From Hymenobacter plasmatis (GTDB lineage: Bacteria > Bacteroidota > Bacteroidia > Cytophagales > Hymenobacteraceae): a stretch of 64,000 nt of DNA. The DNA lies in the NCBI RefSeq assembly GCF_020711255.1, contig NZ_JAJFAW010000016.1:1-64000 (forward strand), read 5' to 3'. Shown in pieces: positions 16,175 to 19,452 of this stretch (within the stretch, counting starts at the first letter, position 1; every line of letters begins with the position of its first letter). Under the pieces are notes generated by a model. It did not search any database. It was not told the DNA's origin and saw nothing but the letters and a program-made list of their open reading frames with translations. A program made the position numbers and the translations under genes.

Positions 16175-16279
16175 GCAACTAAAAAGGCCGGGATAACGGA
16201 TTGAAGGCCTAAAGAACGGCATTATCCAGCCAGCAAGCCCGTAGGCGCCCCAAGCGCGGGCGCCAGACAGAACAAAAAC

Positions 16280-16310
16280 GCCTCGTAACCAATGATTACG
16301 AGGCATTTTG
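16280..16310 (-). terminator. Terminator after the DUF6799/actin-fold gene
   Basis: A perfect 9-bp stem (GCCTCGTAA, 16280-16288, with 16296-16304) is followed on the minus strand by a GTTTTTGTT run. It lies just after the stop of the gene at 16329-17552. Confidence 0.75.
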
Positions 16311-16328: not shown

Positions 16329-17552
16329 CTAAGGCAGCGACAGTAGGTAGCCCATGGTGAAGTTGGTATCGAAGCCGAACACGAACTGCTGGCAACCCGT
16401 AGCCGCGGCCACTGCCTCATAGATATTGAGGCCGGCCTTGGCTTTGGCGGTGTTGAGCTGAGTGTAGTAGCTGGCGGGCTTGAGCACGGTGTAGGGCTCC
16501 TGGCCCTGCCGCACGGCCTTGGCCAGCTCGTAGGGCGCCCCTCCTATAATAAAGCACGTGCCGCGCAGGTTAGCGGGTACTTGCCCGGCCTTGTTTTTTA
16601 CATCGGCGGCTACCACGGCATCGGCCGTGTGCTTTTCGTAGTACTTGGAGCCGTACGAATCGGTCACGCGGGTTTCTTTGCCTTCCAGCCAGGCAATTTT
16701 GCTGTTGGCAGAGCCTAGGTCCAGCACAAAGGCTTTGTTGGCAAAACCGGGAGGCAGGGCGGCTAGCAGGCCCAGTTCGCCTTCGCGCTCCGGCGTCACC
16801 GTCGTTACCACGTACTTAAGCTCTTCCAGTCCCTTCACGATGTTGTGTGTGCCCTGCGACAGCGCCGCGCCCGAGCTCATCACAAAGTGAATGTCGCGCG
16901 CCGACACCCCAAAGTCGAGCATCTGGCCAATGTAGGCCTTCAGGCCGGTGCGGATATCGGCGGCGGTGGCCATGTTTTCCATCACCAGGCTATTGCCAAA
17001 CTCGGATTTTTCCAGCTTCCAGTTCCGTTTTTCGTCCATGCGAATGATGAACAGGTTGAAGCCGCTGGCCCCGAGCTCCACCACCCCGCGCAGCTTGCCA
17101 TTGACGGGCGCCGTGGGCCGGTACGTAAAGGCCGGTGCTACCGGAGCGTCTGCTACGTGAGCCGGAGCAGGAGCTACTGGAGCTGGGGCAGGGGCTGGCG
17201 ACGGTGCCGCTTCCATAAGGGCCAGCATGGGAGCTTCGGGGGCGGGTGCCTTCTGAAGGAGGTCACCGGTCAAGCTCAACATGTCGCCTTCCTGCAATAC
17301 CACCCGCTTGCCGCTGGTGAGCACCACCGACTGGGTGCGGTACTCCACCCGCACGCCGTTGGGCAAGGTGATGTCCTGGCTCAACGGCTTCGACTGGTTG
17401 CCGGTCTGGAGCACCATGGCCTGGTTCTGCACTTTAAACCATGGGATGTAGCCCCGGGCTTCGGTGGATTTGGTCTGGGCAGCGGCCTGCTGGGTGCTGC
17501 TGGCCAGTAATATGGCGCTGAGAAGGAGGGAGGCAAGTAACGGTTTTTTCAT
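16329..17552 (-). CDS. Exported DUF6799 protein with an actin/Ppx-like C-terminal domain
   Basis: This 407-residue protein has a Sec signal peptide (LLLSAILLASSTQQAAAQ), then a DUF6799-like domain at about 30-105 with the form MVLQTGN...VEYRTQSVVLTSGKRVVLQEGD. An alanine/proline-rich linker follows at about 110-145. The last 260 residues look like an ASKHA (actin/Hsp70/exopolyphosphatase) fold: VVELGASGFNLFIIRM resembles a phosphate-1 loop, FVLDLGSANSKIAWLEG a phosphate-2 loop, and CFIIGGAPYELA an adenosine-type loop. ASKHA enzymes normally act in the cytoplasm, so export is odd. The DUF6799 unit is shared with the protein at 18784-19350. Its function is unknown. Confidence 0.72.
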   Translation of the reverse strand: MKKPLLASLLLSAILLASSTQQAAAQTKSTEARGYIPWFKVQNQAMVLQTGNQSKPLSQDITLPNGVRVEYRTQSVVLTSGKRVVLQEGDMLSLTGDLLQKAPAPEAPMLALMEAAPSPAPAPAPVAPAPAHVADAPVAPAFTYRPTAPVNGKLRGVVELGASGFNLFIIRMDEKRNWKLEKSEFGNSLVMENMATAADIRTGLKAYIGQMLDFGVSARDIHFVMSSGAALSQGTHNIVKGLEELKYVVTTVTPEREGELGLLAALPPGFANKAFVLDLGSANSKIAWLEGKETRVTDSYGSKYYEKHTADAVVAADVKNKAGQVPANLRGTCFIIGGAPYELAKAVRQGQEPYTVLKPASYYTQLNTAKAKAGLNIYEAVAAATGCQQFVFGFDTNFTMGYLLSLP

Positions 17553-18783: not shown

Positions 18784-19350
18784 TTATTTCGGGGCCGTTA
18801 GCTGCGCGTCGAGCTGCGCGATTTGGGCGTCGATGGATTTGGTGTCGGGCAAGTCGGTGCGGCCCTGGCTCAACAAGCTTATCTTCTGGGTCAGCAGCTC
18901 AATTTTCTTGGTGAGGAGGGAGTTCTGTATCGCGGGGTCAGAGAAGCCGGGGCCGCGCTGCACGTAGGTGTCAAACTTGCCGCTGGGGCCATTGGGCGCT
19001 TCGCCCCGGGCCGCTGCCGCACTACCGGGCGTGGCAAACACCACCCCGCCGTCTGCCCGCACGTAGTCGCCTTCGCGCAGGGTCAGCTTCTTGCCCTGGG
19101 GGTTAATCTTGTCGGCGGGCATTTCCACGATGCCGCTTTTGTAGTTGATTTTGACGCCGCTTTCCAGCTTCACGTTTTGGGTGAGGGGCGTGAGCACCTT
19201 GCCCTCGCGGCGCATCACCTCACCGTCCTTAAACACAAACTGGGTGCGGGGCGTAGTTTTAACGGGGAAGCCGCCTTCCTGCGCGGCGGCGTGGCGGGGG
19301 GCGGTGGCCAAGCAGGCGGCCGCCAGCAATACGAAAACAAGACGATGCAT
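18784..19350 (-). CDS. Exported DUF6799 protein
   Basis: This 188-residue protein has a signal peptide (MHRLVFVLLAAACLATAPRHAAA) and a domain at about 30-110 that resembles DUF6799, with two similar repeats (KDGEVMRREGKVLTPLTQ and KSGIVEMPADK...LTLREGDYVRADG). A C-terminal coiled-coil-like stretch follows (LLTKKIELLTQKISLLSQ). It is a paralogue, in its N-terminal unit, of the protein at 16329-17552, with only the epimerase gene between them. The role is unknown. The start is the ATG at 19350; an upstream start would break the signal peptide. Confidence 0.72.
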   Translation of the reverse strand: MHRLVFVLLAAACLATAPRHAAAQEGGFPVKTTPRTQFVFKDGEVMRREGKVLTPLTQNVKLESGVKINYKSGIVEMPADKINPQGKKLTLREGDYVRADGGVVFATPGSAAAARGEAPNGPSGKFDTYVQRGPGFSDPAIQNSLLTKKIELLTQKISLLSQGRTDLPDTKSIDAQIAQLDAQLTAPK

Positions 19351-19452
19351 AGAAATGAGAAAAGTGGTTGAACCTGCGAGGATACGCATTTTGCGGCGTT
19401 AAGGAGAAAGACCGTCCAGTTAACCTAAAATAATTTTAAAATAATCGGGAAC

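Follow-up and report, generated by a model that had tools for sequence, protein, structure and literature searches.

A putatively exported Ppx/GppA-fold protein with an altered active site in Hymenobacter plasmatis

Ppx/GppA proteins are known as enzymes of the cytoplasm that act on polyphosphate and alarmones. In a 64-kb stretch of DNA from Hymenobacter plasmatis (contig NZ_JAJFAW010000016.1, positions 1 to 64,000, hereafter called the window) one gene raises the question of what a protein of this kind would do on the other side of the membrane. A sequence-only reading had described the product as exported, with a DUF6799 domain followed by an actin/Ppx-like domain, and had noted that ATP and polyphosphate are scarce outside the cytoplasm. 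The open reading frame is as it was described there, and the layout of gene and product is given in Table 1.

Table 1. Position of the gene, the parts of its product and the adjoining hairpin within the window.
Feature	Position	Strand	Basis or remark
Whole gene	16329..17552	-	Open reading frame, 407 aa: probable signal peptide, DUF6799, Pro/Ala linker and Ppx/GppA-fold domain
Probable Sec signal peptide, residues 1-26	17475..17552	-	Called by eye; DUF6799-fused relatives start alike
DUF6799 domain, residues 44-97	17262..17423	-	Pfam PF20606
Pro/Ala-rich linker, about residues 102-139	17136..17249	-	Sequence; pLDDT mostly low
Ppx/GppA-fold domain, residues 150-407 (~258 residues)	16332..17105	-	Predicted structure and fold search
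Loop 1 ELGASGFN, residues 159-166	17055..17078	-	E159 at the metal-ligand Asp position of Ppx
SSGA, residues 226-229	16866..16877	-	ATSA(x)R region of Ppx; Arg lost
TPEREG, residues 253-258	16779..16796	-	E257 at the catalytic Glu position of Ppx
Loop 2 DLGSANSK, residues 278-285	16698..16721	-	D278 retained, K285 replaces Glu
IGGAPYEL, residues 336-343	16524..16547	-	'Adenosine' loop position
Terminator-like hairpin	16275..16309	both	Just downstream of the gene

The N-terminus consists of a short basic region (KK), a hydrophobic core and an alanine-rich stretch leading to AAAQ, and the claim of a clear Sec signal peptide holds when it is read by eye; signal peptides were called in this way or with a simple hydrophobicity rule. 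DUF6799 (PF20606) scores 32.4 bits against a Pfam cut-off of 26.8 and is here fused to the Ppx-fold domain. No Pfam family covers the C-terminal domain of the 407-residue protein at E up to 1; the other entries obtained at that level, DEC-1_N (residues 91-144) and Curlin_rpt (residues 42-53), both stay under their cut-offs. NCBIfam gave adenine phosphoribosyltransferase (E 0.099) and nothing usable. The GC content of the gene is 0.609 against 0.608 for the window, and a single promoter-like match was given no weight.

It might be argued that the gene is decaying or spurious, given that the domain is found in only 17 of the 37 genomes of the genus. Yet the frame is open, and comparison with four relatives gives a dN/dS of 0.086-0.172 for the domain (Nei-Gojobori, 268 codons), showing that it is under purifying selection. 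The protein also retains the residues characteristic of its own group. A chance or spurious origin is further disfavoured by the presence of the domain in 20 of the 59 genomes searched (including three of 22 from outside the genus) and by the alignment of its loops with those of Ppx/GppA. We consider decay or a spurious frame extremely improbable. Several more of the 59 genomes match DUF6799 only.

Structure prediction with AlphaFold was based on the 407-residue protein and 62 domains, which were left after a 93% redundancy filter of 80 sequences (the best 80 of 365 relatives). From residue 141 on, the mean pLDDT per ten residues lies between 86 and 98, except for values of 75 and 67 at residues 181-200. 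When the modelled domain is compared to the PDB with Foldseek, the best 27 among the 50 matches listed are Ppx/GppA or exopolyphosphatase chains, with Aquifex 1t6d on top (E 3.1e-13). VIA, which only re-ranks the Foldseek matches, gives H. pylori PPX/GppA a Z of 23.5 (rmsd 3.1, 248 residues); the best 23 among its 50 matches listed are Ppx-type, and the NTPDases come next, with Z values reaching 18.8 (246 residues). The actin/Ppx-like assignment is thereby supported, and an unrelated fold, set beforehand as its refutation, did not occur. The three loops pointed out in the sequence-only reading (ELGASGFNLF at residues 159-168, DLGSANSK and IGGAPYEL) indeed align with Ppx/GppA loops, where this fold has its phosphate-1, phosphate-2 and 'adenosine' loops. 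According to the model, the C-terminal domain almost certainly adopts the two-lobed Ppx/GppA fold.

Likeness to the known structures of Ppx/GppA (PF02541; A. aeolicus 1t6c/1t6d, H. pylori 6pc0, D. radiodurans 8jgo) thus extends over almost the whole domain, although the 407-residue protein has neither a PF02541 match (at E up to 1) nor the C-terminal HD-type region. The ASKHA fold is also common to the NTPDases or apyrases (GDA1/CD39; 4bra, 3zx3), but these have a lower Z than Ppx, and a Pfam scan at E up to 1 listed no match of the protein to their family. A profile comparison with Ppx of related genomes yields E 2.7e-5 over 141 columns (probability 74.5). PF02541 scores 13.0, 19.4 and 17.6 bits in three membrane-anchored relatives, all under the cut-off of 27, and in four distant exported relatives two scores pass (38.5 and 29.3 bits) and two fail (18.9 and 17.8 bits). 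The motif around the catalytic glutamate is most commonly TPEQEG in the exported family, a form which is present in Aquifex Ppx/GppA too. Since the genome of H. plasmatis also holds two canonical Ppx genes, the 407-residue protein is not the housekeeping copy. Several other matches were put aside: PHA synthase (E 0.002) and four weaker ones from a single-sequence PDB search were discarded as chance, a profile search of the PDB reached Aquifex Ppx only at E 0.9, under unrelated proteins, and carries no weight alone, and a sub-cut-off match in the same genome concerned an FtsA-like protein (L138, presumably FtsA).

Differences are more pronounced when the active site is considered. For D. radiodurans PPX, D7, R86, E114, D136 and E143 are described as residues of the catalytic centre (PMC11234463), and the equivalent Arg, Glu, Asp and Glu are named for a mycobacterial PPX (PMC3411833). 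These positions were transferred to the exported proteins by motif and alignment, and residues were counted in 43 exported-type rows and 23 Ppx rows. The positions of E114 and D136 (E257 and D278 here) are invariant in both sets, with Glu and Asp respectively in 43/43 and 23/23 rows. At the D7 position all 23 Ppx rows have Asp, whereas the exported rows have Glu in 36 cases (among them E159 of the 407-residue protein), Asp in six and Gln in one; the change from Asp to Glu keeps the acidic character. The Arg at R86 is found in all 23 Ppx rows and in just one of the 43 exported rows (L203), and is Ala in our protein; eight exported rows (L184-L191) have an Arg a few residues further on, which may be its displaced counterpart. 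Finally, the E143 position, always Glu in Ppx, is Lys in 41 of the 43 exported rows (K285 here), Leu in one and Glu in one. The REG motif reads T-I-G or similar in the group of the 407-residue protein and K/R-E/Q-G in many signal-peptide and TPR rows.

Two exported rows deviate in their own way. L123 (3612-4641, plus strand) is an anchored form with Glu for Lys in loop 2 (DMGSGGTE), the sole such row of the 43, and L203 (1668-3126, plus strand), a paralogue of the signal peptide plus TPR type, has Gln in loop 1, Leu for Lys and an Asp in the GG loop, and is by its sequence possibly a degenerate copy.

As to whether the catalytic residues of Ppx/GppA are kept, the answer is therefore divided: E257 and D278 remain, the Asp has mostly become Glu, and other residues stand for the Arg and the loop Glu in almost every one of the 43 exported rows. 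Judged by these positions, the 407-residue protein is not a canonical exopolyphosphatase. The earlier suggestion of a periplasmic or surface polyphosphate enzyme stands insofar as an exported-type Ppx-fold protein is concerned, but the polyphosphate part is weakened by the retention of only two of the five PPX core residues. NTPDases are ASKHA enzymes that act outside cells, and both Ppx and NTPDases consume their substrate and do not need ATP as a helper. Because Ppx/GppA hydrolases consume their substrate and NTPDases work extracellularly, export is in itself no paradox, and scarce external ATP does not exclude a function.

These considerations might point to an ordinary exopolyphosphatase or nucleotidase in the periplasm, which would scavenge phosphate in the same manner as Ppx or an NTPDase. 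The fold and the partial catalytic site agree with this, as do the extracellular NTPDases as fold relatives, but Lys takes the place of Glu in loop 2, the Arg is absent, and Pfam detects no phosphate-uptake gene among the scanned neighbours in the window. We regard such an enzyme as improbable.

The relatives bear on the export itself. Among the best 80 of 365 relatives, which come from Hymenobacter, Spirosoma, Dyadobacter, Arcicella and others, a pattern rule counts 56 proteins with a transmembrane anchor and 24 with a signal peptide and DUF6799. More distant relatives are lipoprotein-like (L037, L038, L045, L046), appear to have a signal peptide alone (such as L039 and L042) or appear to combine it with TPR (such as L040, L041 and L043). 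When 395 Bacteroidota genomes were sampled, matches better than E 1e-17 occurred in 24, and those read carry export-type N-termini; six of the weaker matches were read (L194-L199) and are ordinary Ppx without such an extension. A pair of lipoprotein-like members, separated by some 5 kb, is present in both G368 (contig C7) and G145 (contig C1); the loci are L127 and L128. Two plasmid-borne relatives are annotated merely as 'hypothetical protein', and a literature search, with most subscription papers outside its reach, returned no description of an exported Ppx/GppA group.

The altered loop 2 goes together with the N-terminal signal. To call a hydrophobic N-terminal segment we used a rule of our own, which asks for 15 residues with a Kyte-Doolittle mean of 1.5 or more. 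In a non-redundant set of 153 proteins, Lys at the seventh residue past the loop-2 Asp coincides with a hydrophobic N-terminal segment in 113, and Glu at this place with the lack of one in 35, counts that are not independent as many of these proteins are closely related. The exceptions are the anchored L123 with its Glu and four rows that escape the pattern: L143 and L153 are Ppx without signal, and L202 (Lys) and L203 (Leu) both have a signal peptide by eye. In an unrooted tree of 66 of the 153 rows one branch splits the 43 exported proteins from the 23 Ppx (support 100/98); as the tree has no root, this split does not imply that the exported group arose only once.

Could the hydrophobic N-terminus nonetheless be an anchor facing inwards, with the domain in the cytoplasm? 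The charges flanking the anchor in relatives are ambiguous and some anchored relatives neighbour kinase and PP2C genes, which would suit this explanation. However, relatives exist that are lipoprotein-like, have only a signal peptide or join it to TPR, and the N-terminus of the 407-residue protein ends in AAAQ and leads on to DUF6799, an arrangement shared by other proteins of the genus that have a signal peptide. A cytoplasmic domain is thus very unlikely. With all 113 Lys-type proteins counted having a hydrophobic N-terminal segment, and with lipoprotein-like and signal-peptide relatives at hand, the sequences indicate that the protein is very probably exported. A possible disulfide C333-C387 was considered as proof of export and given little weight: both Cys are present in 58 of 63 rows and one in the other five, and Cys is absent from three anchored relatives.

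A signal peptide and DUF6799 have probably taken the place, in Hymenobacter, of the membrane anchor seen in relatives. The model of DUF6799 is all-beta (pLDDT 88.5) and matches nothing in the PDB at E up to 0.001, nor anything over Z 2.3 in VIA. The H. plasmatis genome has five DUF6799 matches, against none in 14 control genomes. A second DUF6799 protein with a signal peptide is encoded nearby (18784-19389, minus strand, 201 aa, 34.6 bits), and the DUF6799-Ppx fusion may have drawn on a neighbouring gene of this kind.

Gene neighbourhoods differ between the two architectures. The gene under study lies between a divergent gene for an MR_MLE-type enzyme and an SDF symporter gene. A gene of the MR_MLE family is found directly upstream, and divergent, in 15 of the 22 assessable loci of DUF6799 type (two of the 24 were not assessable; loci from the best 80 of 365 relatives). 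For the anchored relatives within these best 80, 38 of the 50 loci that could be assessed (six of 56 could not) have a coiled-coil membrane gene immediately upstream, and 34 anchored loci have a second coiled-coil gene ahead of the first. Identity of this membrane protein with PspA/IM30 was rejected, as the member scanned first and eight of nine further members gave no match and the ninth only a weak one. A relative of this gene is also present in the H. plasmatis genome itself (L140, contig C72, 6860-7852, plus strand), coding for a membrane coiled-coil protein with a PspA/IM30 score of 33.1 bits (cut-off 33.9); no Ppx-fold gene was seen in the 15 kb read around it.

Three genomes (L206, L207 and L208) share a conserved set of five genes, in which those for VWA, PP2C and a protein kinase are followed by those for the anchored Ppx-fold protein and the coiled-coil protein, with Pfam checked for L208. 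The VWA/PP2C/kinase triad may be TerY-P-like, and a Ppx-fold gene is not known to belong to it. A similar set is found on the Hymenobacter plasmid NZ_CP095064.1 (L205), where the kinase and Ppx-fold frames are split. Unlike the anchored relatives that share an operon with these triads, the gene under study has no VWA, PP2C or kinase gene next to it. The arrangement suggests a role of the anchored form in signalling or envelope stress, which is not directly transferable to the 407-residue form.

This brings forward the explanation that the exported domain is a non-catalytic sensor or scaffold, which would bind a phosphorylated or nucleotide ligand in its Ppx-type cleft and signal through the anchor, DUF6799 or partner proteins without turnover. 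The replacement of Arg and loop Glu in nearly all exported rows speaks for it, as do the VWA, PP2C and kinase genes beside anchored relatives in three genomes and the frequent coiled-coil membrane genes. Against it, E257, the Glu that activates water, and D278 of the loop have remained invariant over deep divergence, and a pure binder does not need both. We hold a sensor, the main alternative to catalysis, to be possible but less likely than not. As the catalytic Glu and the loop Asp survive such divergence and the exchange of Arg and Glu follows a fixed pattern, altered catalysis is slightly preferred over pure sensing.

The reading we favour is therefore that of an exported-type Ppx-fold protein which acts as a hydrolase with an altered site, a statement that as a whole we put forward tentatively, at somewhat below an even chance. 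Following this reading, the protein would leave the cytoplasm by Sec export and its domain would work in the periplasm. The cleft would bind a phosphorylated ligand (polyphosphate, a nucleotide or another), phosphate would be removed with E257 and D278, and Lys 285 would partly stand in for the Arg and Glu that are missing. A phosphate-type ligand is fairly likely; that the domain is an active hydrolase is plausible, though the chances are a little against it. Several observations count against the favoured reading: the Ppx Arg and the Ppx loop Glu are each left in just one of the 43 exported rows, PF02541 gives no match for the protein and only sub-cut-off scores for anchored relatives, and three anchored genes adjoin kinase and phosphatase genes, which are of kinds that are usually cytoplasmic.

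Summarizing, the alignments place the 407-residue protein in a Bacteroidota set that pairs an export or membrane signal with an active site of its own (E/D159, E257, D278 and K285). Compared to Ppx/GppA, the exported family shares the two active-site acids, Glu and Asp, that never vary, and differs in its signal, the loop-1 Glu, the lost Arg and the loop-2 Lys. A wider proposal, rather unlikely as it stands, would be that of an extracytoplasmic Ppx/GppA branch in Bacteroidota which, with Glu and Lys for Asp and Glu and without the Arg, senses or turns over a phosphorylated envelope signal; its anchored members would be coupled to VWA/PP2C/kinase or coiled-coil membrane modules and the Hymenobacter copy would be released on a DUF6799 carrier. 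In the 153 proteins the Lys/Glu swap tracks the N-terminal signal almost perfectly, which offers a simple marker by which such proteins may be found and tested. If a coherent exported group with a conserved yet altered site holds true, it would mean that the Ppx fold, and perhaps its chemistry, is also put to use in the envelope of Bacteroidota.
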